In this document: in pieces, positions 7,210 through 32,919 of the stretch | Position numbering within the stretch: the first letter of the stretch is position 1 | Layout of the letters: each line of letters starts with the position of its first letter | DNA from: Nitrososphaerota archaeon | GTDB lineage: Archaea; Thermoproteota; Nitrososphaeria; Nitrososphaerales; Nitrosopumilaceae | Reading direction: 5' to 3' | NCBI GenBank assembly: GCA_021323705.1 | Contig: JAJPKL010000026.1 | Location: 1-33,010 of the forward strand | Length of the DNA stretch: 33,010 nucleotides | Made by a program: the position numbers and the translations under genes | Notes under the pieces: generated by a model | Database searches by the model: none | Told to the model about the DNA's origin: nothing | Seen by the model: only the letters and a program-made list of their open reading frames with translations

Positions 7210-7302
7210 GCGGGTCTATGGCTCAGCCAGGTAGAGCGAGGGACTCTTATGATAATTTCAGAGACATCCCTATGCCGTGGGTTCAAATCCCACTAGACCC
7301 GC
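7210..7302 (+). tRNA. tRNA-Lys(CTT) with 16-base intron
   Basis: Acceptor stem GCGGGTC pairs with GACCCGC at the 3' end. The T-arm is GTGGG-TTCAAAT-CCCAC. The D-arm contains GCTCAGCCAGGTAGAGC. The anticodon stem is AGGGA/TCCCT. Removing 7250-7265 leaves the loop CTCTTAA, which gives anticodon CTT. The intron is at the canonical position after base 37, and CTCT in the exon pairs with AGAG in the intron, with three-base bulges TAT and ACA, as in an archaeal bulge-helix-bulge. The 3' end is the attachment site of the element to the right. CCA is not encoded. Confidence 0.95.
7290..7302 (+). repeat. Attachment site copy in tRNA-Lys 3' end (attL)
   Basis: CCACTAGACCCGC, the last 13 bases of the tRNA-Lys gene, recurs exactly at 22085-22097. 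Direct repeats of a tRNA 3' end flanking an integrase-carrying block are the usual trace of tyrosine-recombinase integration. Confidence 0.75.
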
Positions 7303-7307
7303 CTACC

Positions 7308-8663
7308 ATGATATCCGAGACCTGCCTTAAATTGAATGATATCCCTGGTAGCATGAGCCAGAAATTAAAACTGCTAGAGGACGACGATGTCAGGAGATGG
7401 TATGAGAACCTCAAGCGAGGAAGCAAGCTAACAGCCGAGGTCAGGCTGCGAAGGGTCGGATTATTTTGCAGGCAGCACGGAATGTCACCAAAAGATCTTG
7501 CAAACATTGGAAAAGAGGATGTGAGAAAGCTTGAAGATTTTTTGCATGACTGCGTAACAGAGATGGAGTCAGAAAATTATGCGCCAGGATACATCGACAA
7601 TACAATCAAGGCAGTCAAGTCATGGCTTGCTCACAACTATGTCGAGCTGAAAAGAAAGATCAAGATTGCAAATGCTACCATTCCTGTGACCATTCAAGAC
7701 GAGGAGATTCCCTCAAAGCAGGATTTGCGGGACATTCTAAATGCTGCAACACGAAGGGCGCGGGCAAGCATCTCGCTTATGGCATTTGCAGGGCTGCGGC
7801 CGCAGGTACTTGGAAGAGATGATGGTTCTGACGCTCTTCGGTTATCTGACATACCAGATCTTGTAGCAGAAAAGGATACAGTGCAATTCAAGAGAATTCC
7901 TGCCATGATAGTAGTGCGGCCCGCACTTTCAAAGGCCGGGCACAAGTACATCACATTCCTTACGGGCCAGGGCTGCCAGTACCTCTTGGGATACCTCAAG
8001 GGCCGCATCATGGAAGGCGAGATGCTAGAGCCACAATCGCCTGTCATATCAGTAATCAGGGGGCATGACAGGATGGGAGGCAGGACAAGCAACCCGATAA
8101 TTACGACAAAATCAATCACTGCTGAGATAAGGGATGCAATCCTGTCAGTGAAAAAGGCGAGGCCATACGTTCTGAGATCGTACTTTGATACCCAACTTCT
8201 CCTGGCAGAAAGCCATGGAAAGATTGCCCATGCGTATAGGCAGTTCTTCATGGGTCACAAGGGCGACATGGAGGCGCGTTATACAACCAACAAGGGAAGA
8301 CTCTCTGACGAGATGATTGAGGACATGCGAAGAACATTCCAACAGTCCGAACAGTTTCTCTCAACAGAAGAAATTCAGGAAAAAGATAAGAAGGAATTAT
8401 TGCTTGAGATGTGGCGCGAACAGGCCAAGATCTACGGAATTAATCCATTGAAGATCAAGATTGAAAAACAGAGAGAGTCGAACGGGTCAAGTCTTGAAAG
8501 CGAGATACTTGCAATAAAGGATGCCATAGTCAAATCAAGGGAGGAAAGATACGAAGGGAAGCTTGTAACAGAGAACGAGCTTGTACCGTATATAGAAAAA
8601 GGGTGGGATATCGTGCGGGAGCTAAGCAACGGCAAGGTCCTTGTGAGGAGAAGATCCATCTAG
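7308..8663 (+). CDS. int: Tyrosine recombinase (integrase) of element 1
   Basis: This 451-residue integrase probably inserted the element at tRNA-Lys. The N-terminal half (about 1-130) is an arm/core-binding helical domain (DVRRWYENLKRGSKL to YAPGYIDNTIKAVKSWL). The catalytic domain shows R164 (AGLRPQVLG), R290 (YVLRSYF), H317 (MGHKG) and the nucleophile Y325 (EARYTTNK). The C-terminus ends ELVPYIEKGWDIVRELSNGK. The frame is open back into the tRNA (ATG 7218), but ATG 7308, six bases after the tRNA, is the first start outside it; ATG 7353 is an alternative. It is clearly related to the integrase at 27467-28780. Its end overlaps the next, convergent gene by 42 bases. Confidence 0.93.
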   Translation: MISETCLKLNDIPGSMSQKLKLLEDDDVRRWYENLKRGSKLTAEVRLRRVGLFCRQHGMSPKDLANIGKEDVRKLEDFLHDCVTEMESENYAPGYIDNTIKAVKSWLAHNYVELKRKIKIANATIPVTIQDEEIPSKQDLRDILNAATRRARASISLMAFAGLRPQVLGRDDGSDALRLSDIPDLVAEKDTVQFKRIPAMIVVRPALSKAGHKYITFLTGQGCQYLLGYLKGRIMEGEMLEPQSPVISVIRGHDRMGGRTSNPIITTKSITAEIRDAILSVKKARPYVLRSYFDTQLLLAESHGKIAHAYRQFFMGHKGDMEARYTTNKGRLSDEMIEDMRRTFQQSEQFLSTEEIQEKDKKELLLEMWREQAKIYGINPLKIKIEKQRESNGSSLESEILAIKDAIVKSREERYEGKLVTENELVPYIEKGWDIVRELSNGKVLVRRRSI

Positions 8664-8975
8664 GATTCCAAGCACAGATTCTACAATCTCCTCCTTTCTC
8701 TTGTATGCCTTCTCAGAGAAGAGGGCAAGAAGCGTGTTTGTCATATCCATGTACGGTCTTATCACACTGCATACAAGATAATCCAAAAACTCGTGCCTCA
8801 GCGTCTTGATTGCATCTGAGATGTTGTAAGAATATACAAGGATGGTATCTCCGCATACCTCGCCTTCCTTTTGCGAGTCGGCCCTTGGTATCCATCTCAC
8901 CTTGAGGCCTTGTCCCTTGCCTGAGAGGCGCTTTAGCCTCTCAAGCTCGCGCTCCAAATCATCTTGTTTTATCAA
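8622..8975 (-). CDS. Small protein with HEFLD motif, unknown function
   Basis: This 117-residue soluble protein has a basic, coiled N-terminus (DLERELERLKRLSGKGQGLKV), a central CGDTILVYSYNISDAIKTLR and then RHEFLDYLV. The HE pair resembles a zincin metalloprotease helix, but the second His of HExxH is absent (Asp instead), so activity is doubtful. It starts with TTG 8975; a CTTAAAAC box A at about 8997-9004 (reverse strand) supports a leaderless start there. It converges on the integrase, and its promoter faces away from the hairpin array. The family is not recognised. Confidence 0.7.
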   Translation of the reverse strand: MIKQDDLERELERLKRLSGKGQGLKVRWIPRADSQKEGEVCGDTILVYSYNISDAIKTLRHEFLDYLVCSVIRPYMDMTNTLLALFSEKAYKRKEEIVESVLGILDGSSPHKDLAVA

Positions 8976-9045
8976 CGTCGATAAAATAGCAAGGTGGTTT
9001 TAAGCCGAGGTTTGCAGCCATGTGAAAAATCTTCTGGAACCATTT

Positions 9046-9089
9046 AGTCATCAATCCGGGGAAAAAAATTCTCCCGCCGATTGATGACT
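9046..9089. repeat. Hairpin 1 of the array
   Basis: The arms AGTCATCAATC and GATTGATGACT pair over 11 bases. The inner part starts CGGGGA and ends TCTCCCGCC, a less perfect core than in the other units. This is the outermost unit and has diverged most. Confidence 0.85.
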
Positions 9090-9157
9090 CTGGATACATA
9101 GTATTGTGGCATAAAACGACTTCATTGGAATATTTCCTGAACTCATCCTCTAGAAAG

Positions 9158-9209
9158 AAAAGACATACATCCGCTGGGAAAATTTTTTCCCGTTAGATGT
9201 ATGTCTTTT
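9158..9209. repeat. Hairpin 2 of the array
   Basis: The arms AAAAGACATACATC and GATGTATGTCTTTT pair over 14 bases. The inner core has GGGAA and TTCCC flanking AATTTT. The right inner side CCCGTTAGATGT is the same as in hairpin 6, although the outer arms differ. Confidence 0.9.
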
Positions 9210-9278
9210 TGATATGTAAAAATGCTACTTGATATTGCAAGCCCTCTAGATGACAGTGGAAATGATCCTCTAGAAACA

Positions 9279-9328
9279 AAAGCTACCCATCCAACGGGAA
9301 CAAAAACTCCCTCTGGATGGGTAGCTTT
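9279..9328. repeat. Hairpin 3 of the array
   Basis: The arms AAAGCTACCCATCC and GGATGGGTAGCTTT pair over 14 bases around a GGGA/TCCC core. The outer AAAGCTA start is shared with hairpin 5, while the inner arm bases differ. Confidence 0.9.
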
Positions 9329-9371
9329 CTCTTCTGTAAAAATATCTCATGACATAATTCTGGAATTCGAG

Positions 9372-9415
9372 GGGGGACAATCCACGGGAGTTTTTTTTCC
9401 CGCCGATTGTCCCCC
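9372..9415. repeat. Hairpin 4 of the array
   Basis: The arms GGGGGACAATC and GATTGTCCCCC pair over 11 bases. The core CGGGAG, T-run, CCCG matches the other units. The right inner side CCCGCCGATTG is shared with hairpin 1. Confidence 0.9.
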
Positions 9416-9463
9416 TTTGCTTTCTGTAAAATAGTTCCATGATGAACTCATATTCTAGAATCA

Positions 9464-9513
9464 AAAGCTAATCAATCCGTGGGAATATTTTTTCCCACAG
9501 TATGATTAGCTTT
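9464..9513. repeat. Hairpin 5 of the array
   Basis: The arms AAAGCTAATCA and TGATTAGCTTT pair over 11 bases, then a short mismatch, then GTGGGAA pairs with TTCCCAC. In this unit the core has a G:C to C:G style change that is compensated on both sides (GTGGG/CCCAC in place of ACGGG/CCCGT). Confidence 0.9.
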
Positions 9514-9556
9514 CTTTTCTGTAAATTCATTCCATGACATGATTCTGTAATCCTAG

Positions 9557-9600
9557 GGTGGACATCTAACGGGAATTTTTTTTCCCGTTAGATGTCCACC
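9557..9600. repeat. Hairpin 6 of the array, perfect 19-bp stem
   Basis: The arm GGTGGACATCTAACGGGAA (9557-9575) pairs perfectly with 9582-9600 around a TTTTTT loop. This is the most regular unit and the one nearest the actin-like gene. Confidence 0.95.
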
Positions 9601-9709
9601 TTCGCTTTACAGAACACGCATCCATTTTTGCCAAATTGATCCGTGGATACAAGACAGGCTCGTACCATGAGATTGCGTGTCTTAAAAGGACGCTTTCCTC
9701 TTGCTTGCG

Positions 9710-10543
9710 TTGATCTCAATAGGGCTTGATGTCGGAACCGGCTTTGTAAAATGTGTCTCTGATACCAAGACGGTCAGGTTTCCGTCGCTTTATGCATACA
9801 GGCTGCCGCACCTGTGGGACAGAGACCAGAAAAAAACTGAAGGCGTGGGAGACGATGCAGTGGAGATGCTCAGGGACCCAGATACGATATCTATCAGGCC
9901 CGTGATGTTTGGCAAACCAGTAAATGAAGATGCGTTTTCCAAGCTTGTCGCAAAAGCGGTACAGTTGTGCTCTGAGAGCAGAGACGCACTGGGCGAGATG
10001 TCAGAAATTGCAATTGTAATAGGATTGCCATACGAGGCCAAGGACTCGCGCAACAACCTGCAGAAGATGATATCGAAACTTCTCAAGCCAAAGTTCTGCG
10101 ATGTTGTACCACAGGCACTGGGCACTCTTGCCTCAGTATCAAAGACTGATGGCATTGTAGTATCGATAGGACAGGGGACTACAGAGATCGTGCCCTTTGT
10201 TGGAAGCACTGCAATGAAGGGAATGTCAGTGCATCATGCAGTAGGATACATTTCGTCAAACTTTGGCGAGTACTCGTACCTTGACCATTCCATATTTTCT
10301 TCCAAAGAGGCAAGTAAGCTTGTTCTTGCGCTTGCCGACTCTCTAGTCAACAGGATACAGCAGGCAAGGGCAAGCTATCAGCACCTTCCGGTAATAATCT
10401 CTGGCGGCGGAATGCTGGTGCCTGGGATGGAGCAAGTCCTGCGCTCAAAGCTAGAGTTTATTGTGCCAGACGACCCTGTAATGTCAAACGCGCAGGGACT
10501 GCACAAGATTGCATCCTGGTATTGTGGTCAGATAACATGCTGA
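9710..10543 (+). CDS. Actin-like ATPase, ParM/Ta0583-like
   Basis: This 277-residue protein has the actin fold signatures: phosphate-1 motif IGLDVGTGFVK near the N-terminus, phosphate-2 motif VVSIGQGTTEI (about 150-160) and adenosine motif IISGGGMLVPGM (about 229-240). Plasmid relatives polymerise to push DNA copies apart. It has the hairpin array just upstream and a small basic protein gene overlapping its end, as in type II partition loci. Start TTG 9710 was chosen because box A CTTAAAAGG (9681-9689) lies 26 bases upstream; TTG 9701 is the alternative. Its role in this element's segregation is inferred from context. Confidence 0.85.
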   Translation: MISIGLDVGTGFVKCVSDTKTVRFPSLYAYRLPHLWDRDQKKTEGVGDDAVEMLRDPDTISIRPVMFGKPVNEDAFSKLVAKAVQLCSESRDALGEMSEIAIVIGLPYEAKDSRNNLQKMISKLLKPKFCDVVPQALGTLASVSKTDGIVVSIGQGTTEIVPFVGSTAMKGMSVHHAVGYISSNFGEYSYLDHSIFSSKEASKLVLALADSLVNRIQQARASYQHLPVIISGGGMLVPGMEQVLRSKLEFIVPDDPVMSNAQGLHKIASWYCGQITC

Positions 10544-10827
10544 GCAAAACTCAGAGAAGATTTCTGCAGGATTCTTCATCGTTTTCAAAAAGACATTCAA
10601 GACAATATCGATACACAATACGAAAAAAAGTATTCAGATCGCTTGATGACTTGAATCTTGTGATAACAAACAACGGCATGGTTGGGCTTGATGTGCAAGA
10701 GTTGAAGGCAAGGCTTGAGAGTCTTGTTGCTCTGTTTGACTCTGTAGTCGTTGCAGAAACCAAAAAATCATCACATGCTGAGACAAAAGCCAACCCATTC
10801 CTAGCTTCAAATTCTGGCTGGGGATAA
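10537..10827 (+). CDS. Small basic protein, candidate DNA-binding partner of the actin
   Basis: This 96-residue protein begins MLSKTQRRFLQ, followed by a basic segment (SKRHSRQYRYTIRKKVFRSL) and a predicted helical region (LDVQELKARLESLVALFDSVV). The LSKTQRRFL-type start and basic helix are seen in small archaeal proteins suspected of binding DNA, but I cannot name the family. Its ATG overlaps the actin gene stop (ATGCTGA at 10537-10543), so the two are translationally coupled. By position it could be the ParR-like adaptor linking hairpins to filaments. Confidence 0.75.
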   Translation: MLSKTQRRFLQDSSSFSKRHSRQYRYTIRKKVFRSLDDLNLVITNNGMVGLDVQELKARLESLVALFDSVVVAETKKSSHAETKANPFLASNSGWG

Positions 10828-10905: not shown

Positions 10906-11010
10906 ATGTTATGTATTGATGTTCTGGGATTATCAACAAGAATGGAATTCTACATCAAAGAGGGGATCATGACATCAAAAGAGGCATATCCCAATGGAGC
11001 ACACACGTAA
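10906..11010 (+). CDS. Possible 34-residue leader ORF
   Basis: ATG 10906 lies 25 bases after the strong box A, where a leaderless start is expected. The frame runs 34 codons (MLCIDVLGLSTRMEFYIKEG and on) and overlaps the start of the RHH gene by 17 bases. It could be a short leader peptide coupling translation to the regulator. There is no homology support. Confidence 0.35.
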   Translation: MLCIDVLGLSTRMEFYIKEGIMTSKEAYPNGAHT

Positions 11011-11563
11011 CAAGACAATAAGAAAGTCATACAGCATACCTGAGGAACTGGCACTTTTGCTAGAAAGAGAAGCTGATCACCGTGATACAAGCTCAAGCAC
11101 TCTCCTTACACAACTCATCAAGAAGGGACTTGTATTTGATCTTCCCTTGTCAAAAATAGGCGTGGTTACCATTCCAGGCCCATGCTTTCAGGCCATGATT
11201 GAAAAGATGAGGCTTGAAGAGCTGGAAGAGCTTGCAAGGGAACAAGCCCTTAGAAATTTTGGCATAATGCTCTCCACGTTTCATGGCAAGATGGACCTAT
11301 TATCCATAGTCAGTACGTATTATGAGAAGTTTAGCAAGTATTCTGGTTGGTATACATTCAAGCATGAGATCGATGAGGAAACTCACAGGTTTGTGTTTGA
11401 ACATACGAGGGGACTGAAATGGTCAAGATATCTGGCAGAGTACAACCACGTAATCCTAGACAAGCTGAGCGAGAAGATAGATTTCCAGATTGACAACAAT
11501 CTTGTAATCTTTAATGTGATTCCAAGGCAGAAAAAAACAACAATATCTTACAGGCATTATTAG
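10994..11563 (+). CDS. Ribbon-helix-helix transcription regulator
   Basis: This 189-residue protein has an N-terminal RHH unit: strand TIRKSYSIP, helix EELALLLEREADHR, and helix SSSTLLTQLIKKGLVFD. A longer C-terminal domain (about 60-189) is mixed alpha/beta with FKHEIDEETHRFVFEHTRG; I do not recognise it. It probably dimerises and binds a palindromic operator. Candidate sites (GTAC-N-GTAC class) occur in its own promoter and on the start codons at 11699, 17771 and 20114. ATG 10994 is the only ATG before the RHH strand. Confidence 0.8.
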   Translation: MEHTRNKTIRKSYSIPEELALLLEREADHRDTSSSTLLTQLIKKGLVFDLPLSKIGVVTIPGPCFQAMIEKMRLEELEELAREQALRNFGIMLSTFHGKMDLLSIVSTYYEKFSKYSGWYTFKHEIDEETHRFVFEHTRGLKWSRYLAEYNHVILDKLSEKIDFQIDNNLVIFNVIPRQKKTTISYRHY

Positions 11564-11686: not shown

Positions 11687-11699
11687 TTGTACTGTACAA
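11687..11699. promoter_or_regulatory. Perfect palindrome on the start codon (operator candidate)
   Basis: TTGTACTGTACAA is a perfect 13-base palindrome that ends on the A of ATG 11699. The equivalents at 17759-17771 and 20102-20114 end on the same base of the start codon. With leaderless transcription a bound repressor would sit on the transcription start. Confidence 0.6.
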
Positions 11700-15359: not shown

Positions 15360-15481
15360 TTGTTCTCATCTTTGCTTATCTTCAGTATCTTGTTTTTGGT
15401 TTGATAGTCTAGCTCTTCTTTCTCTGGCTTTTCTGCAGGATCCACCTTGTGCCATTTTAACGGAGATATGTCATGAATCAA
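15356..15481 (-). CDS. Hidden 41-residue ORF in the operon
   Basis: TTG 15481 overlaps the stop of the Cdc48-N-like gene (TTGA), and its TGA overlaps the ATG of the zinc-ribbon gene (ATGA). The 41-residue product is hydrophilic and charged (LKWHKVDPAEKPEKEELDY, then a Lys-rich end). Exact overlaps at both ends argue that it is real and translationally coupled. There is no recognisable family. It is too short for most gene finders. Confidence 0.55.
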   Translation of the reverse strand: MIHDISPLKWHKVDPAEKPEKEELDYQTKNKILKISKDENK

Positions 15482-16530
15482 ATCTTTATGTCTAATCTCC
15501 AAGGACCTTGCGCTACCATGTAATGTGATTTTTGCTGCTGCCAGACAGAGACTACCGTAGGCTCGCCTCTTATTGCCTCATTTATCTGCTCGAGAAACTG
15601 CAAGTCCTTCTTGTCCCGTCTCTTCCAAGCTATCTCATCTATCTCAATGGTAATCTTTGATACATCTTTTTTTATTGCGGGTACAAAAGTCAAGAGCAAT
15701 TTGTTGCACTGTGATCCTTCCTCAGTCCACCGGCTCTCAACCTTTCTTGTCTTGACTTGCTTGTATACGGTTCCGATATCGTCATGTGCTGATATCACTA
15801 CATGCATTATGTTTTCAAGCCACTCTGTCGGCTCATCAAGAACAACTCTTGTCTCAAGATAGAGCCTCCATTCATCTTCATAGTTCTCAAACGATTCAAG
15901 GGAAATACCAAGCCTCTTGTCAGATATCTGCTTTCCTATCTGAAATCTTTTTTTCAGTTTGGATAGTTGAGGTGCAAGGGAATTTCTATAATTATACGAA
16001 ACAAAATTGAACTTCGTATTTTCAGATATTACCAATATCTCTGAATTAGGCTTTGCATCAACTACGCCAAACTCTGCAAAAGGGAATATCGAGTCTGACT
16101 CCTTGATTGCGATTCTTATCCAGTCTCCTTTTGTAAAAGGTGTTCCAATCAGACTTTTCAGGTCGAGACTCTCTGCCTTGTATGTATAGGGCCTCCTTGA
16201 TGCAAGAGTTATACTCTCTGCTGTCACTACGTCTTCAGCTTTTTCTATCTCTACTAGAGAGAGTACTTCACCACCTGCATTTTGGAAGACCAGATCACTT
16301 GGGCGTGTTAGATGTTGGATCCTTTCTGTATTATGCAGAAATTCGAATGTGGGATCGTGTGGTAGTGTCTTGTCTAGTGGCATACACATTGCAGCTGTAT
16401 CTCTTGAGCCTTTTACACGTACTATATCGCCGCTAGAAACTCCAAGCCTTTCCATTTCTGCCCTAGGAATCCTGATGTATGCCTTGGCAAAATCGTCGGG
16501 GTATGGGGGTATTATCCTAAAAAAACTCAT
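15478..16530 (-). CDS. Stand-alone Cdc48/VAT N-domain protein
   Basis: Residues about 8-50 (AYIRIPRAEMERLGVSSGD, IVRVKGSRDTAAMCMP) match the double-psi barrel at the start of Cdc48/VAT AAA ATPases. Residues about 125-180 (GTPFTKGDWIRIAI, FAEFGVVDAKPNSEILVISE) match the second, four-stranded N-subdomain. No Walker A or B motif follows; the last 160 residues are an unknown domain with basic segments. It may act as a substrate adaptor, decoy or competitor of the host Cdc48. Its ATG overlaps the stop of the secreted gene before it (TGATG). Confidence 0.75.
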   Translation of the reverse strand: MSFFRIIPPYPDDFAKAYIRIPRAEMERLGVSSGDIVRVKGSRDTAAMCMPLDKTLPHDPTFEFLHNTERIQHLTRPSDLVFQNAGGEVLSLVEIEKAEDVVTAESITLASRRPYTYKAESLDLKSLIGTPFTKGDWIRIAIKESDSIFPFAEFGVVDAKPNSEILVISENTKFNFVSYNYRNSLAPQLSKLKKRFQIGKQISDKRLGISLESFENYEDEWRLYLETRVVLDEPTEWLENIMHVVISAHDDIGTVYKQVKTRKVESRWTEEGSQCNKLLLTFVPAIKKDVSKITIEIDEIAWKRRDKKDLQFLEQINEAIRGEPTVVSVWQQQKSHYMVAQGPWRLDIKI

Positions 16531-17527: not shown

Positions 17528-17700
17528 AAGAAAAAAAAAACGCGCATTTTCTATTTAAAAGATCCGTAGATTGTCATCGAAAACGTGTTATACCCAATCA
17601 AACTAGAAGATGTCTTCTTTTGCAGATTAAATGTACCGTAAAAAAATTTGTTTGTTCATTTATTGCAATGAACGGTCCAGTACATTATTCTAGAAGATTT
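17528..17700. other. Intergenic promoter region
   Basis: The region holds the promoter of the winged-helix remnant with a run of ten A, and a half-operator ATGTACCGTA at 17631-17640. No gene is seen. The exact repeat begins at 17701. Confidence 0.4.
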
Positions 17701-17778
17701 TCATTGGCTCTAGGTACACTGCTCCGAGAGCAAGCGCGCCTTATTAGATAATGTTGTGTTGTACCGTGCAATGACAAA
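17701..17778 (+). repeat. 78-base exact repeat, copy 1 (promoter of secreted C)
   Basis: This segment is identical to 20044-20121. It contains a small hairpin GCTC-CGA-GAGC, the box A CTTATTAGAT, the operator-like TTGTACCGTGCAA and the start ATGACAAA. The identity ends two codons into the genes, so a promoter cassette was copied without the coding part. Confidence 0.9.
17759..17771. promoter_or_regulatory. Operator candidate on start codon of secreted C
   Basis: TTGTACCGTGCAA differs from a perfect palindrome at one position pair. It ends on the A of ATG 17771, as the perfect site at 11687-11699 does on ATG 11699. Confidence 0.5.
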
Positions 17779-18673
17779 TAGCAACAAATCAAAAACTGTA
17801 ACCACCATAATTGCAGCATTGGTGATAGCATCAGTGTTGTCAACACCAACAACCCTAATACCATACGCTAACGCCCAGCCAAAACCGTATCAAATTGCAC
17901 CACCAATGCCAGATGCAATCGGTTGTTATCACTTTACAAAAGTAACTGGATGGCAGAAGATTGCTTGCGCCTCGGAGGAACAGTTGAGGATGGCAGGGCT
18001 TTATCCTCCTACTGAAGGGGGTAGCAGTAAGTTACAAGCGCTGATCCAAACTTCTAACCCGACATTTGGCGAAACTGAGGTCAAATTCTCCACTTACAAT
18101 GGAGAAACCGATTCTGGAACACAAACATCTAACACATGGAGCATCCAACTTAATACGAATCAGTGGACCTTATCAAACGGAAATTCTTATGAAACTCAAT
18201 TTACAGAACAAAATCAGCCAAATTCAGCGTTGGAAGAAGCTTGTGTATGGCAGATTAAAACAAACAGTCCCCAAGACTATTCTGATAAGCACTGTGTTTC
18301 CGTTCCGCAACAAACATTATCTTCAACTTTCGCTGGTAATGTTCAAGGCTATGTAACATCTAGCGATTCGCTCGAAGCGGAGTACTGTGACGAATCAATA
18401 AACCAGTGCTATGGTGTGATCACAACGGATGACTTTCAAACCAAAACAAATTGGTTCGATAGCTCAGGGCAAATTCTCGGAGTAGGAGGTAGCTCAAGCG
18501 CAAACTTTGTTAGTTCTGCACAAGAAACTACATCGATTTGGGACAGTCCAGAAACCTCAACCCAGCAAAACCTACAACAATCTACCAATGAGTCAAACAA
18601 CCTGAACTGGGGCCCAGTTAACTGGTCATGTAACGGTGGTACGTGTACTGAAACTGTCACCTCCAGTATTTGA
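17771..18673 (+). CDS. Secreted protein C, unknown function
   Basis: This 300-residue protein has a signal peptide (KTVTTIIAALVIASVLSTP, ending YANAQ). The mature part is Ser/Thr/Gln/Asn-rich, begins with a short Cys-containing segment (AIGCYHFTKVTGWQKIACAS), and continues with a beta-rich domain (VWQIKTNSPQDYSDKHCV). It ends with a Cys pair (WSCNGGTCTETV). The signal peptide is similar to that of the gene at 20114, but the mature sequences are not. ATG 17771 is preferred over the in-frame TTG 17756 because box A lies about 28 bases upstream. Confidence 0.8.
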   Translation: MTNSNKSKTVTTIIAALVIASVLSTPTTLIPYANAQPKPYQIAPPMPDAIGCYHFTKVTGWQKIACASEEQLRMAGLYPPTEGGSSKLQALIQTSNPTFGETEVKFSTYNGETDSGTQTSNTWSIQLNTNQWTLSNGNSYETQFTEQNQPNSALEEACVWQIKTNSPQDYSDKHCVSVPQQTLSSTFAGNVQGYVTSSDSLEAEYCDESINQCYGVITTDDFQTKTNWFDSSGQILGVGGSSSANFVSSAQETTSIWDSPETSTQQNLQQSTNESNNLNWGPVNWSCNGGTCTETVTSSI

Positions 18674-19659: not shown

Positions 19660-19982
19660 AAATCAAAAAACAAGTACGAAATGTCATAGGACAAGAAATC
19701 AAAGGTACATTAAAGAATGAATTACACAATAAAACGACATGTGCAAACCAAATCAGGGTTTGGATTATGGTGGGGATCATCTCATTATTTGCGATTTCAA
19801 TAGTTTCGACTGTTGAATGGAATGATCTGATACAAATTACTAAGACTAATTACTATAATCATCCAAATCTTGTGGTCGCAACCTTGTCTTTACAGTTGGG
19901 AAAAATCAACGTGTACTTGGAACATAAGTTTGAAATTCGAAATTCTGAATGGATAGCAGGCCCTGCCAAGCCTGTACAGTAA
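19641..19982 (+). CDS. Small membrane protein with RNSEWIAGPAKPV tail (copy 1)
   Basis: The frame from TTG 19641 gives 113 residues: a polar N-terminus, one hydrophobic helix (IMVGIISLFAISIVSTV) and a conserved end. Its last 33 residues align with those of the protein at 21737-21997 (LGKINVYLEHKFEIRNSEW against LDKTNTYLEQKLGIRNSEW, then IAGPAKPV). The start is uncertain: ATG near 19767 would give a 71-residue signal-peptide protein; TTG 19641 would overlap secreted D. The conserved tail suggests a shared extracellular or peptide function. Confidence 0.65.
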   Translation: MGSSTLKIKKQVRNVIGQEIKGTLKNELHNKTTCANQIRVWIMVGIISLFAISIVSTVEWNDLIQITKTNYYNHPNLVVATLSLQLGKINVYLEHKFEIRNSEWIAGPAKPVQ

Positions 19983-20043
19983 GAAATTATTGCACATTCA
20001 TTTTCTGTAACGGTTAGTCCAGTACAAATCTTCTAGAAAAATC

Positions 20044-20121
20044 TCATTGGCTCTAGGTACACTGCTCCGAGAGCAAGCGCGCCTTATTAGATAATGTTGT
20101 GTTGTACCGTGCAATGACAAA
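20044..20121 (+). repeat. 78-base exact repeat, copy 2 (promoter of secreted E)
   Basis: Identical to 17701-17778. It carries the same box A, small hairpin, operator candidate and first codons. The spacing of the two copies is 2343 bases. The bases just before (TCTAGAA) are also similar in both. Confidence 0.9.
20102..20114. promoter_or_regulatory. Operator candidate on start codon of secreted E
   Basis: TTGTACCGTGCAA, the same site as at 17759-17771, ends on the A of ATG 20114. Confidence 0.5.
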
Positions 20122-21124
20122 AATTCACTTCAAAGACAAAAAGGCAAAAACTGTAACAACAATCATGGGCGCAGTACTGATTGGATTGTTAATGTTTTCA
20201 CCTTCGGCAGTACTACCATATGTGAACGCACAGCAAGTCAATCGAGAATCTAATCTACCACCTGTAGCTCAAAAGCTCTTGGATTACATGCACCAACAAT
20301 TTGAGAAACATCCCGATTGGGTCGGTATGATGAGATGGAACACCACAGCTGCGAGCTTCGATTACCTCGGACCAGCAAATCAAAACCCATATAGAGTTCA
20401 TGGGATCTTCATGCAACCTACTGGAGTTTTAAACGGAGGCGTAGGCATAGTGAGTGATAGATCAAATGGGGGTACTAGCGAGTGGAAGGAGATCTCCACC
20501 TATACAAATCAAGCGTTATCGTCAACCAACACTGACCTATTTCAAGTCTTGAATGCTATGAATTCCAATAGTGCTCACTGGCTTCAAGTGGCTGCGGTTT
20601 ACGATAATGCCCAATTGATTGGAACTACTGGAGTTGGTTGGAAAGTCACGATCGATTCATTTTCCACATCAGCATGTTCCACTACGGGAGAATGGTTTGT
20701 ATCAAGCCCTATTCAGACATACATGCAATCAGGCCATTCTATGCAGTCATTTCTCTATGCTGATCAGTCGCAAGCTGGACACTACGATGCAGGAGTAACT
20801 GATACTAGTGCAAATAATGGCTACTTGTATGGTTTTGGAATCACTGGAGATAGTGGCTCTACCATAAATTTGGGTGAGACAGATATAGGAAGTTGTCATT
20901 TTTCAAGTGGACCGGAGCAAGAAGAACAATCGGATGGATCTACGACAAATCCAACAAAATATAACAATGAGGCATATGCTATGGGCTTCTACGATACTCC
21001 TACCTCGTCTGAAACTACCTCGGTCCAGAATTGGGAAACCCCATGGTTATCATCTTGTATGGGTTTAAGTCCTAATCCACCACCAACCAGTCCAGCAGTA
21101 GCAACTTTCACCTACACCTGTTAA
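20114..21124 (+). CDS. Secreted protein E, unknown function
   Basis: This 336-residue protein has a signal peptide (AKTVTTIMGAVLIGLLMFSP, ending YVNAQ). The mature part starts with a helical stretch (VAQKLLDYMHQQFEKHPDW) and continues as a beta-rich, Gly/Ser/Thr-rich domain (GVGIVSDRSNGGTSEWKEIS, LQVAAVYDNAQLIGTTGVGW). It ends in a Pro-rich segment (NPPPTSPAVATFTYTC). Cys residues are few and late. The mature part of protein A has similar WI/F-rich beta strands, so remote homology is possible. ATG 20114 is chosen by distance from box A. Confidence 0.8.
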   Translation: MTKIHFKDKKAKTVTTIMGAVLIGLLMFSPSAVLPYVNAQQVNRESNLPPVAQKLLDYMHQQFEKHPDWVGMMRWNTTAASFDYLGPANQNPYRVHGIFMQPTGVLNGGVGIVSDRSNGGTSEWKEISTYTNQALSSTNTDLFQVLNAMNSNSAHWLQVAAVYDNAQLIGTTGVGWKVTIDSFSTSACSTTGEWFVSSPIQTYMQSGHSMQSFLYADQSQAGHYDAGVTDTSANNGYLYGFGITGDSGSTINLGETDIGSCHFSSGPEQEEQSDGSTTNPTKYNNEAYAMGFYDTPTSSETTSVQNWETPWLSSCMGLSPNPPPTSPAVATFTYTC

Positions 21125-21736: not shown

Positions 21737-21997
21737 ATGATCGAATTAGACAATAAAACCGTGATAGCAATTCCTTTTGTACTTTGTCTGATATCTGGCC
21801 TTGCAATTCTATCTCCAACTTCAACATTGCCAGCTAATGTGCAGAATCATTCTACAAAGACTATGCATTCCGATATGCCAAGTTTTATTATGACAAAATT
21901 GTCTTTATCGCTAGACAAAACCAATACCTATTTGGAGCAGAAGTTGGGAATTAGAAATTCTGAATGGATTGCAGGACCTGCCAAGCCTGTACCGTAA
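21737..21997 (+). CDS. Small membrane or secreted protein with RNSEWIAGPAKPV tail (copy 2)
   Basis: This 86-residue protein has a hydrophobic segment (TVIAIPFVLCLISGLAIL) and a polar His/Ser/Thr-rich region, then the conserved end (KTNTYLEQKLGIRNSEW, IAGPAKPVP) shared with the protein at 19641-19982. Box A CTTATTAGC at about 21708-21716, the same form as for the secreted genes, is 25 bases before ATG 21737. It is the last gene of the element before the right attachment site. Function unknown. Confidence 0.7.
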   Translation: MIELDNKTVIAIPFVLCLISGLAILSPTSTLPANVQNHSTKTMHSDMPSFIMTKLSLSLDKTNTYLEQKLGIRNSEWIAGPAKPVP

Positions 21998-22084: not shown

Positions 22085-22097
22085 CCACTAGACCCGC
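22085..22097 (+). repeat. Attachment site copy, right end of element 1 (attR)
   Basis: CCACTAGACCCGC is the exact copy of the tRNA-Lys 3' end. Upstream, GTGG-AAAA-CCAC imitates a shortened T-arm. No full tRNA is present here. Confidence 0.75.
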
Positions 22098-27295: not shown

Positions 27296-27370
27296 TGGGT
27301 TCATAGTCCAGTTGGTTATGACGTCGCCCTTACACGGCGAAGATCCAGGGTTCGAATCCCTGTGGACCCA
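27296..27370 (+). tRNA. tRNA-Val(TAC)
   Basis: Acceptor stem TGGGTTC pairs with GGACCCA (one G-T pair). The anticodon stem TCGCC/GGCGA encloses the loop CTTACAC, giving anticodon TAC. The T-arm is CAGGG-TTCGAAT-CCCTG. There is no intron and CCA is not encoded. A CTTATATGC box A lies about 25 bases upstream. Its 3' end is the likely attachment site of element 2. Confidence 0.97.
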
Positions 27371-27466
27371 TTTCCTTTGTGGGTGCGGATACCACGACCC
27401 TGCCGTTTGGCAGAGCCCCGACATAGAGCCAGCCGTCATTTATGAGTCGTTCTGCCTCCTCGGGCC

Positions 27467-28780
27467 CTACAACACGCTGCTGGTATTGCAGCCTGCCAGT
27501 TCACTGACAAGCTTTTGCACCGCGGCAAGCTTTTCAGGCGGGAGACACTGTATTGACTGTCTTATCTGTTCCCTTTTCTCTTCCTGTGGGTCTTCTGCTC
27601 CTTTTTCCAGATCCAACAACTCTTCGCTTCTCCTAAACGAGTCCCGCATCGCATCAGTCAGGGCTTTAGGAAGTATTCCCTTGTTTGTCGTGTAGGTTGC
27701 CTCTATGCTTCCCTTGTGGCCCATGAAGAAGACACGAAAGTCGTGTGCTATCTTGCCGCGTGACTCTGCAATCAGCAGCTGGGTGTCAAAAAAAGCTCTG
27801 AGCACATATGGCCTCCATTGGAAGCGGGGCCTCATGGTATTCTTTATCTCGACCCTTATCCGCTGTGTTGGCAAGAAGGGTTTTGTACTGTTCTGTCCCC
27901 TCTGCATTGGATGTTTTGATGCAGGTGCTATCACGGGAGAGTCTGGTGCTAGTGCATCACCGGCAAGTATTCTTGCATTGAGATATGCAAGGAGTCTTTT
28001 TGCCCCCATGTCGGTGATGAAGGTAAAGTACTCGTGCCTTGTTTTTGAAAGAGCCTTTCGCACCTTGATTCTCGGAGGAATGCTTGTGAAGATGACAAGT
28101 CCCTCCACTATTGCAAGGTCTGGCAGATCCTTTATTCGCAGTCCGTCCGTACCGTTGTGATTGCCAAGAACCTCGGGCCTCAGTCCGGCTTTTGCAATCA
28201 GGGACATCATGGCTCCTGACCGCACCTCAGACCTGTTGAAGAGCTCCGTAAGCTCCAGACTCTCTGGGACCTTCTCGTTTTCTAGTGTAGGAGTAGAGCC
28301 AAGGTTTGAGATCTTGATTCTCCTTTTGATCTCTACCTCAAAGTGCCGCAGCCATGATTTTACAGCCTTTACGGTATCTCCTATGTATCCCGGGGCATAG
28401 CCTTCTTCCTCCATTGATGTTATGTGGTCCTCTATCAGGTCCGTGACTGCTCTAAGATCCCTCATGCCAAGTTCCGCAAGCTCGCTTGGAGTCATGTGGT
28501 GAGCTTGGCAGAAAAGACCCAGCCTGCGAACCCTTACATCTGCGGTAAGTTCGCTTCCCCTTGACAGGTTTTCGTACCATCTCTTGACATCGGGATTGGC
28601 AAGGAGCCGGTTCTTTTTTGTGTACTTTTGTTTTGTGGCAGTGTTGATGTTTGTGGTTTGTTCTATTTTTCCCATATCAGACTGCCAGCTTGCTTTGTGC
28701 AAGCAGTCCTCATCATTCTGTACAGGCGCAGTGGAGGTATTTTTGAATTTCTCATCTGAAAGGACTGGGTCAGAAACCAT
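27467..28780 (-). CDS. int: Tyrosine recombinase (integrase) of element 2, C-terminus frameshifted
   Basis: This 437-residue integrase is a homologue of the one at 7308-8663 (for example RWYENLSRGSELTADVRVRR and YAPGYIGDTVKAVKSWLRH). The catalytic residues R201 (AGLRPEVLG), R328 (YVLRAFF), H355 (MGHKG) and Y363 are present. It stops at TAG 27467 after ELAGCNTSSVL. In another frame, just downstream, GPEEAERLINDGWLYVGALP and NGRVVV match the end of the first integrase (ELVPYIEKGWDIVRELSNGK). So the last 40 residues are shifted out of frame. The 3' end, not the 5' end, faces the tRNA, the reverse of element 1. Confidence 0.9.
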   Translation of the reverse strand: MVSDPVLSDEKFKNTSTAPVQNDEDCLHKASWQSDMGKIEQTTNINTATKQKYTKKNRLLANPDVKRWYENLSRGSELTADVRVRRLGLFCQAHHMTPSELAELGMRDLRAVTDLIEDHITSMEEEGYAPGYIGDTVKAVKSWLRHFEVEIKRRIKISNLGSTPTLENEKVPESLELTELFNRSEVRSGAMMSLIAKAGLRPEVLGNHNGTDGLRIKDLPDLAIVEGLVIFTSIPPRIKVRKALSKTRHEYFTFITDMGAKRLLAYLNARILAGDALAPDSPVIAPASKHPMQRGQNSTKPFLPTQRIRVEIKNTMRPRFQWRPYVLRAFFDTQLLIAESRGKIAHDFRVFFMGHKGSIEATYTTNKGILPKALTDAMRDSFRRSEELLDLEKGAEDPQEEKREQIRQSIQCLPPEKLAAVQKLVSELAGCNTSSVL

Positions 28781-31749: not shown

Positions 31750-32919
31750 ATGCAAATCAGACGGATGAGAATTCAGAATCTGTATTCCTACAGAGAGGCA
31801 GATTTCAATCTTTATGATTACAGCGTAATAGCCGGATCCAATGCAAGTGGTAAAACAAACCTCTTAAGAATACTTGATTTTATACGCGGAGAAAAAACAG
31901 GGTACCAAATAAATGACATAAGACTTGAAAAGAAGTACAAACCAGATCCAGACAAAAAAAGTTCTGTCATTCTTGAGCTAGCGCTTTCTGATCCGGAGGC
32001 AACCGTACTAAGGCATCTTATTTTCAAGGAAGATAGTGGAGATACAACCGTTCCAGAGATTTTTAAAAAGATAAGCGTCGGTCTTTATTGGGAGGAGACA
32101 ATTGAGGACGGTACGCAGCCAATAGCGGTACTCAGGTTAGGAAATGGCTTCTCAGTTATCCGTTATAATGCTGATTGGATGTGTATAGTGGGCCAACTAC
32201 CAACGATAGATCTAAGGAAGAAATTGGAGGTATCGAAGGATATAGCGCAAAGCACCAATAACGATTATCGTGAAAAGTTTATACGACAACATAATTTTGA
32301 ACCAACTACTCTATTTCAACAAAAATTATTTAGGCAAAAATTATTGAATGGAGATTCTCTCAACGAGTTTTTCACTGTTGATGATACCGAGGTAAAGATG
32401 GTGTCCCAAATTCAGGATGTTACATACCGTTCTCCTCTCCAAAGATGGCAAAAAGAAATTTATGATTTTACTCAAATGACTAGCAACCCTAGCTCCCAAC
32501 TCAGTCTCTGGTCCTTGCTTTCAAAAATCATCGACCAACAAATTATAATCATTAAGGAGATCAGGCCAAATTACAAGGAGCTTGCAAAGATGTTATTTGA
32601 CTTCAATACGGTGGAAGGATATGAAGAGAGAGGGCCACTTCTTTCCACAAGTTTTTCAGAGATTTTCCCTCGTGTCTCATACGATGTCAGACAACCTGCA
32701 GAGGTTCAGCAAGGTGTTCAGAAGGATAGGACTCCCCAGATTTACATAAATGAGAACGCGTCTAGATATCCTATTGAGGAATCTGCTGCAGGATACTTTG
32801 AAATTTTGTACCTGTTGGCTAGAATTGCTCATGCAAAAGATAGTTTTCTGATCCTTGACGAACCCGCTTTGCATTTACATCCAACAAAGATCAAGCATTT
32901 AGGTGAGGGATGGGCATAA
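31750..32919 (+). CDS. ABC-type ATPase (OLD/RecF-like), frame broken near the C-terminus
   Basis: This 389-residue frame starts like SMC/OLD/RecF-type ATPases: MRIQNLYSYREADFNL, then Walker A GSNASGKT (residues 29-36). Near the end is the Walker B region FLILDEPALHLHP. Defence and DNA-repair ATPases share this layout. After HLHPTKIKHLG the expected text shifts frame: GMGIISHKNNV is read in a second frame, and VSQHVSYTSWMLAASDTVIV is read in the first frame beyond the TAA at 32917. So the C-terminus appears to contain two compensating frame changes, by mutation or by sequence error. The gene also runs off the right edge in this sense. Confidence 0.75.
   Translation: MQIRRMRIQNLYSYREADFNLYDYSVIAGSNASGKTNLLRILDFIRGEKTGYQINDIRLEKKYKPDPDKKSSVILELALSDPEATVLRHLIFKEDSGDTTVPEIFKKISVGLYWEETIEDGTQPIAVLRLGNGFSVIRYNADWMCIVGQLPTIDLRKKLEVSKDIAQSTNNDYREKFIRQHNFEPTTLFQQKLFRQKLLNGDSLNEFFTVDDTEVKMVSQIQDVTYRSPLQRWQKEIYDFTQMTSNPSSQLSLWSLLSKIIDQQIIIIKEIRPNYKELAKMLFDFNTVEGYEERGPLLSTSFSEIFPRVSYDVRQPAEVQQGVQKDRTPQIYINENASRYPIEESAAGYFEILYLLARIAHAKDSFLILDEPALHLHPTKIKHLGEGWA

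Follow-up and report, generated by a model that had tools for sequence, protein, structure and literature searches.

Organization of the locus

The window, by which we mean the whole 33,010-nucleotide stretch analysed here, is contig C12 of a 1.84-Mb genome (G000). A tRNA gene on the + strand (7212..7303; tRNA-His according to ARAGORN) was the target of an integration. Its 3' end, CCACTAGACCCGC at 7290-7302, forms attL, and the same 13 bases recur on the + strand at 22085..22097 as attR, the right border of an element that measures 14.8 kb between the copies at 7290 and 22085. A tyrosine-recombinase-like integrase is encoded at 7305..8663 (+); it had no match in Pfam and was assigned from its motifs (LRSYFDTQL..GHKGDMEARY), its position and the att repeats. 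The element thus has both features of tRNA-targeting cryptic integrated elements, an integrase gene and att repeats at a tRNA 3' end. It resembles the cryptic integrated elements of Thaumarchaeota (PMC6563490) in its integration at the 3' end of a tRNA gene, its short att repeats and its size (~15-17 kb). The integrase is the only gene common to those elements, and the main text of that study makes no mention of actin, ParM or hairpins (PMC6563490).

The order in the element is integrase, orf117 on the reverse strand, a palindrome array, an actin-like gene, orf101, an RHH-like gene and genes for secreted proteins. orf117 (8622..8963, −) encodes a small conserved protein with no assigned function; it adjoins the integrase gene and is transcribed away from the array. 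Its single-sequence fold was poor (pLDDT 52) and was left out. The actin-like protein (9701..10543, +) is ParM-like; it scored above the Pfam cut-off for MreB_Mbl and just below that for ALP_N, and matched phrog_691, 'partition protein', with an E value of 5.8e-12. Conserved directly 3' of the actin-like gene is orf101 (10537..10827, +), which encodes a small basic protein, a candidate adaptor. Its structure model was all-helical (pLDDT 80.8), showed no ParR-like fold and gave no ParR match in the PDB. One gene further, the RHH-like protein (10994..11563, +) weakly matched a ribbon-helix-helix family close to its N terminus (RHH_5, E 0.08, under the curated cut-off); no such gene was seen at the equivalent place in G030, a second genome with an array.

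Structure of the palindrome array

Six palindromes, which are real and far above chance expectation, occupy positions 9046-9614: W1 (9046-9089), W2 (9158-9209), W3 (9279-9328), W4 (9366-9421), W5 (9464-9513) and W6 (9543-9614), all listed without a strand. The initial annotation had described six palindromes of 44-52 bases, 90-120 bases apart, and had inferred recognition by an element-encoded protein. Their number and their centre-to-centre distances (116, 120, 90, 95 and 90 bases from W1 to W6) were as described, and the link to an integrated element was supported. The distances are not whole helical turns, and helical phasing of the units was rejected. Between positions 9000 and 9660, five units reached a palindrome score of at least 10, compared with a mean of 0.21 and a maximum of 2 in dinucleotide shuffles (n=300). 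Folding z-scores of single units were −5.5 to −11, and none of 200 shuffles folded equally well.

The six units share one register, with zero indels over columns 4-69, and a single symmetry axis. From the outside inwards, a loose, partly paired outer helix (TCTAGAA/TTCTGTA) is followed by three mostly unpaired positions, an arm of ~14 pairs whose variability is highest in columns 15-20, 3-4 mostly mispaired positions, the GGGA/TCCC core and an A/T-rich centre with a loop of 6-8 bases. In W1 the sequence reads AGTCATCAATCC..core..GCCGATTGATGACT, with an A-rich loop. Arms pairing perfectly around the core had been proposed; paired arms and core are present, but columns 26-28 between them were Watson-Crick in only 15 of 30 cells. 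Pairing therefore comprises arm and core and is non-continuous, except in W6, which is paired throughout.

W3-W4 and W5-W6 represent a duplicated block, and pyrimidine-rich tails trail the hairpins on the + strand. Some arms seem to resemble the 16S 3' end. The spacers, which had been called conserved, are so in part: the G030 array matches the U2-spacer-U3 stretch at 78% identity, and the spacer alone is ~75% identical, the same level as coding DNA. Homologous units were 69-72% identical against 68% for the actin gene, and the idea that the arms evolve faster than all else was discarded.

As the initial annotation had supposed, no named repeat family was found. Rfam 15 gave no match at the gathering score (sub-threshold matches were mostly to miRNA models, far below the cut-offs), and the family had no match in plasmid, phage and viral-contig collections. 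Three known arrangements were also rejected: a CRISPR array, because the repeats vary in their arms and the spacers are partly conserved; an integron attC array, because the 90-120-base units have no gene between them; and REP/BIME dispersed repeats, because all own-genome matches lie within the array.

Covariation of the arms and promoter-like signals

Covariation was scored on ten units, six from the window, three from G030 and one from G005. Paired cells amounted to 87.5%, compared with 73.8% in column shuffles and ~45% with one strand slid, and 14 pairs had changes on both sides. Double-change cells numbered 37 against 14.3 in shuffles, and the covariation score was reached by 0 of 500 shuffles, which bears out the compensated arm changes reported at first. 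A covariance model was built from the same ten units, and two units of G016, excluded from building, served as a held-out test. They scored 49.3 and 29.0 bits with pairing versus 19.2 and 10.4 bits under a model that took only the sequence of that alignment into account. Gains of 30 and 19 bits on unseen units indicate that the covariation of the arms is genuine; the covariance-model check suggested in the initial annotation came out in its favour. In arm columns 15-25 (110 cells), 103 cells were Watson-Crick, none G-U and 7 mismatched, and G-U and A-C were frequent in the looser zones (columns 4-14 and 26-28).

The further claim, that compensated changes mean selection for pairing, does not follow. 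Template switching between the arms of inverted repeats homogenises the arms and inverts the loops (PMC8604942, PMC8794818) and could itself create compensated changes, so covariation alone is no proof of such selection. Both traits are present in the array. Loops occur in both orientations, T-rich and A-rich; the core of the G030 unit G30c is the exact reverse complement of the W6 core; and the W3 loop matches that of W4 at 7 of 8 positions as reverse complement and at 0 of 8 directly. Loops made almost wholly of A or T say little about inversion, and the informative pair is W3 versus W4 alone. Hairpins maintained by template switching resemble the array in that one arm is copied from the other and loops are inverted, but the described cases come from rRNA and yeast coding DNA rather than from an array within a mobile element (PMC8794818, PMC8604942). 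The array is a clear warning that strong covariation is not automatically RNA structure or pairing selection, as copying of arms at the DNA level explains it equally.

Two TATA-like boxes, both CTTAAAA, bracket the array. One, at 8998-9004 on the − strand, is upstream of orf117 and points left; the other, at 9681-9687 on the + strand, is upstream of the actin-like gene and points right. In both G000 and G030 one box of the form YTTAWWW was found on each flank of the array, both outward, and none inside it; this consensus is simple and other promoter kinds are possible. Watson-Crick arms with no G-U pairs, loops in both orientations and outward-only boxes favour a DNA-level feature. Of the two possibilities first offered, a structured DNA or RNA array, the former is thus favoured and the latter weakened, and the units resemble docking sites on DNA more than small RNAs.

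Distribution of the units

A covariance-model search of 250 genomes of the host family found credible units in four, with six units in G000, three in G030, two in G016 and one in G005. 'Thaumarchaeota archaeon' isolates REEA70 and REEA19 carry these units. In a sample of the phylum (398 genomes), units were present in the window's own genome alone, where every match of the model lay inside the array and none was scattered; the initial annotation had named genome-wide scatter without relation to mobile elements as one outcome that would speak against it. The many matches in integrated elements that it foresaw did not appear, since only four elements of one genus were found. A weak match on a phage-like contig of G272 was dropped, and a BLAST match of 30 bases within a coding region of G078 was ascribed to chance.

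G030 has the integrase gene, orf117, three units, the actin gene and orf101, at a tRNA different from that of the window. The array lies upstream of the actin gene, at distances of ~90-650 bases in G000 and 170-480 bases in G030. In G016, two units follow integrase-orf117 on an 11.4-kb contig with no actin gene; the array thus lies after integrase-orf117 in three elements. The single unit of G005 is located just behind a membrane-protein gene, directly after the stop codon, and is terminator-like, with a T run at its end on that strand; the actin gene is 10 kb off. A sister element in G019 has integrase and orf117 at the same tRNA, plus an actin gene, and no array. A fixed pairing of array and actin gene therefore fails in G016, G005 and G019. 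The hairpins of W6, the G030 unit G30a and the G005 unit are nearly alike base for base, with unrelated flanks, and the inner 46 bases of W6 (9557-9602) are 91-96% identical to single units in G030 and G005. No target-site duplication was seen at the units. Elsewhere, L123 contains a lone perfect intergenic hairpin at 9382-9421, GTATCATCCTAGCATAATTTTTTTTATGCTAGGATGATAC, with a T8 loop and CATCC/GGATG like the window units and without the GGGA core.

Palindromes at other actin loci

Relatives of the actin-like gene were present in 29 of the 250 family genomes. Within the window's genus most homologues had no such palindrome. A second genus has long loop-free palindromes of unrelated sequence (CGCAAACnnTCATAG and its complement). 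In G217:C39 and G203:C20 they are found between the integrase and actin genes; in G217:C59 and G199:C8 they precede the actin gene by ~900 bases. Palindromes of a third type occur 740 bases upstream of the actin gene in G204, G172 and G192. The order integrase-palindrome(s)-actin, with unrelated palindromes, was found in G217:C39, G203:C20 and, weakly, in G041. The 27 actin loci contained 27 strong palindromes, of which 17 lay within 1.5 kb upstream of the actin gene, a zone that makes up 11.8% of the bases (11 of 27 loci; binomial p 4e-10). Because arrays, and loci related to one another, do not count as independent cases, this p value overstates the enrichment. At least three unrelated palindrome types contribute to it.

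The second-genus palindromes also occur in elements with no detected actin gene and in front of gene clusters. In a strict-compensation test their halves were unequal at 10 of 18 distinct sites, more than half, and they are therefore analogues of the window array, not members of the same family. Unequal halves are easier to reconcile with two half-sites on duplex DNA than with a folded strand. In G217:C39 (L135), G199:C85 (L172) and G217:C124 (L170) the loop-free palindromes, of 42-50 bases, are built from few half-site types, with CAA, CTT, CTG or GTG before TCATAG, combined equally or unequally; one genome has 11 copies, and they occur in 3 of 95 genomes of that genus. Genes for pilin-like and small membrane proteins lie alongside actin-like genes in conjugative-type elements (L136, 6483-7204; L014, 5806-6491), and the membrane proteins of the two genera look related (27% identity, pairwise E 9e-7).

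Possible function of the array

We tentatively read the array as a cluster of cis-acting DNA sites of a cryptic tRNA-integrated element, most likely a centromere-like (parC-type) site, or a maintenance site of a closely related kind, acting together with the downstream ParM-like actin gene; of the readings considered this is the leading one, held with less than even confidence. The GGGA..TCCC cores, with their two-fold symmetry, and the arms would be the target of a dimeric protein of the element, such as orf101 or the RHH-like protein. Once bound, this protein may tie actin filaments to the excised circle, on the pattern of srpMRC of SXT/R391 and AlpAC-alpS. Template switching between the arms would maintain their compensation, at least partly. 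This reading draws on the order integrase-orf117-array-actin-orf101 in G000 and G030, the order integrase-palindrome(s)-actin elsewhere and the upstream enrichment of palindromes, the match of the actin-like protein to a partition protein, the outward-only TATA-like boxes, the arms with no G-U pairs, the pairing gain on held-out units and two precedents.

In SXT/R391, the integrase gene and srpMR form one operon, with the centromere srpC upstream of srpM (PMC4489591). The window element is likewise integrated, its integrase gene lies beside the actin-like gene, a repeat-bearing intergenic region (the centromere in SXT/R391) lies upstream of that gene, and the small candidate adaptor has no ParR homology. 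It differs in that srpC contains four repeats of 13 bases, direct and inverted, rather than palindromes of 44-72 bases, and in that srpMRC is bacterial and has a tested function. In prophage CGP3 of C. glutamicum, alpS repeats lie upstream of the alpAC operon (PMC5539076). That system shares with the window an integrated element, an actin-like protein, a small adaptor, for which orf101 is the candidate in the window, and repeated upstream sites, but alpS is a short TTAAnnG motif and has no palindromes with paired variable arms.

Against the centromere reading stand the units of G016 and G005, which are not beside an actin gene, the lack of an array in G019, the majority of actin homologues of the same genus, which have no such palindrome, the second-genus palindromes in elements with no detected actin gene, and the fold of orf101, which is not ParR-like. 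A type II (ParMRC) system has a gene for a ParM/actin-like NTPase, as found here, and a ParR-type ribbon-helix-helix adaptor downstream of parM, in whose place lies the all-helical orf101. It also has centromere repeats upstream of parM, a position that the array occupies in G000 and G030, whereas in G019, G016 and G005 it is missing or elsewhere. The locus cannot be classed as ParMRC, because orf101 has no ParR match and array and actin gene do not always occur together. Should the array prove to be a centromere, thaumarchaeal integrated elements, about whose maintenance little is known, would have a candidate site for actin-driven partition.

The array could instead consist of mobile or duplicating palindromic repeats (miniature, BIME/MITE-like) with no function for the element, spread by tandem duplication and local transposition and with arms paired by template switching alone. 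We consider this less probable, but by no means negligible. The variable copy number (6, 3, 2 and 1), the duplicated block, the near-exact hairpin common to W6, G30a and the lone G005 unit despite unrelated flanks, and the two loop orientations all agree with it. The lack of target-site duplications, the confinement of each genome's other units to one array, the between-species conservation of the U2-U3 spacer at the level of coding DNA and the identical place after integrase-orf117 in three elements argue against it.

Rather unlikely is a replication origin or regulatory operator region, in which dimeric sites would lie between the divergent promoters of orf117 and the actin gene. The outward boxes bracketing the array in G000 and G030, the presence of orf117 next to all three arrays and the second-genus palindromes preceding gene clusters are consistent with such a region. 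On the other hand, no replication initiator was recognised in the window element, a simple operator is unlikely to need six sites across 550 bases, and the G005 unit lies behind a gene.

An array of small structured RNAs, or one multi-hairpin RNA, is not supported and appears improbable: the hairpin energies are strong, pyrimidine-rich tails follow the hairpins and the G005 unit is terminator-like, but the array interior has no TATA-like box, the arms contain no G-U pairs and no Rfam family matched at its gathering score. It would be more surprising still if the array were a hairpin code, in which one element protein bound the conserved core and the co-varying arms, as folded DNA or RNA addresses, gave each unit its identity, with template switching under pairing selection as the source of their diversity. 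Least probable by our estimate are sites that fold into single-stranded DNA hairpins or cruciforms and are recognised by their shape (attC-like or HUH-type recognition, or origins for single strands). These would suit the strictly Watson-Crick arms of variable sequence and fixed length and the A/T loops, but no HUH protein or integron integrase was recognised in the window element, the units have no intervening cassettes, and the analogous second-genus palindromes are loop-free and often have unequal halves.

Other features of the window

A 91-base direct repeat (17688-17778 and 20031-20121; 97% identity) lies directly 5' of two secreted-protein genes, 17756-18673 and 20099-21124, which are different but start with similar signal sequences; the gene at 11687 starts alike. 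The repeat is perhaps a common promoter or leader for the secreted-protein family. A 162-base repeat (19821-19982 and 21836-21997; 70% identity) encodes similar C-terminal ends. The element protein at 15478-16530 has a CDC48 N-terminal-like domain (E 3e-8, just below the Pfam cut-off) without the AAA part. Another integrated element, this one at tRNA-Val, is seen at 27296-28780 and beyond. Its integrase, encoded on the reverse strand, is related to that of the first element (~49% identity), and the element extends towards the window end and carries an AAA ATPase (AAA_15) gene at 31750.
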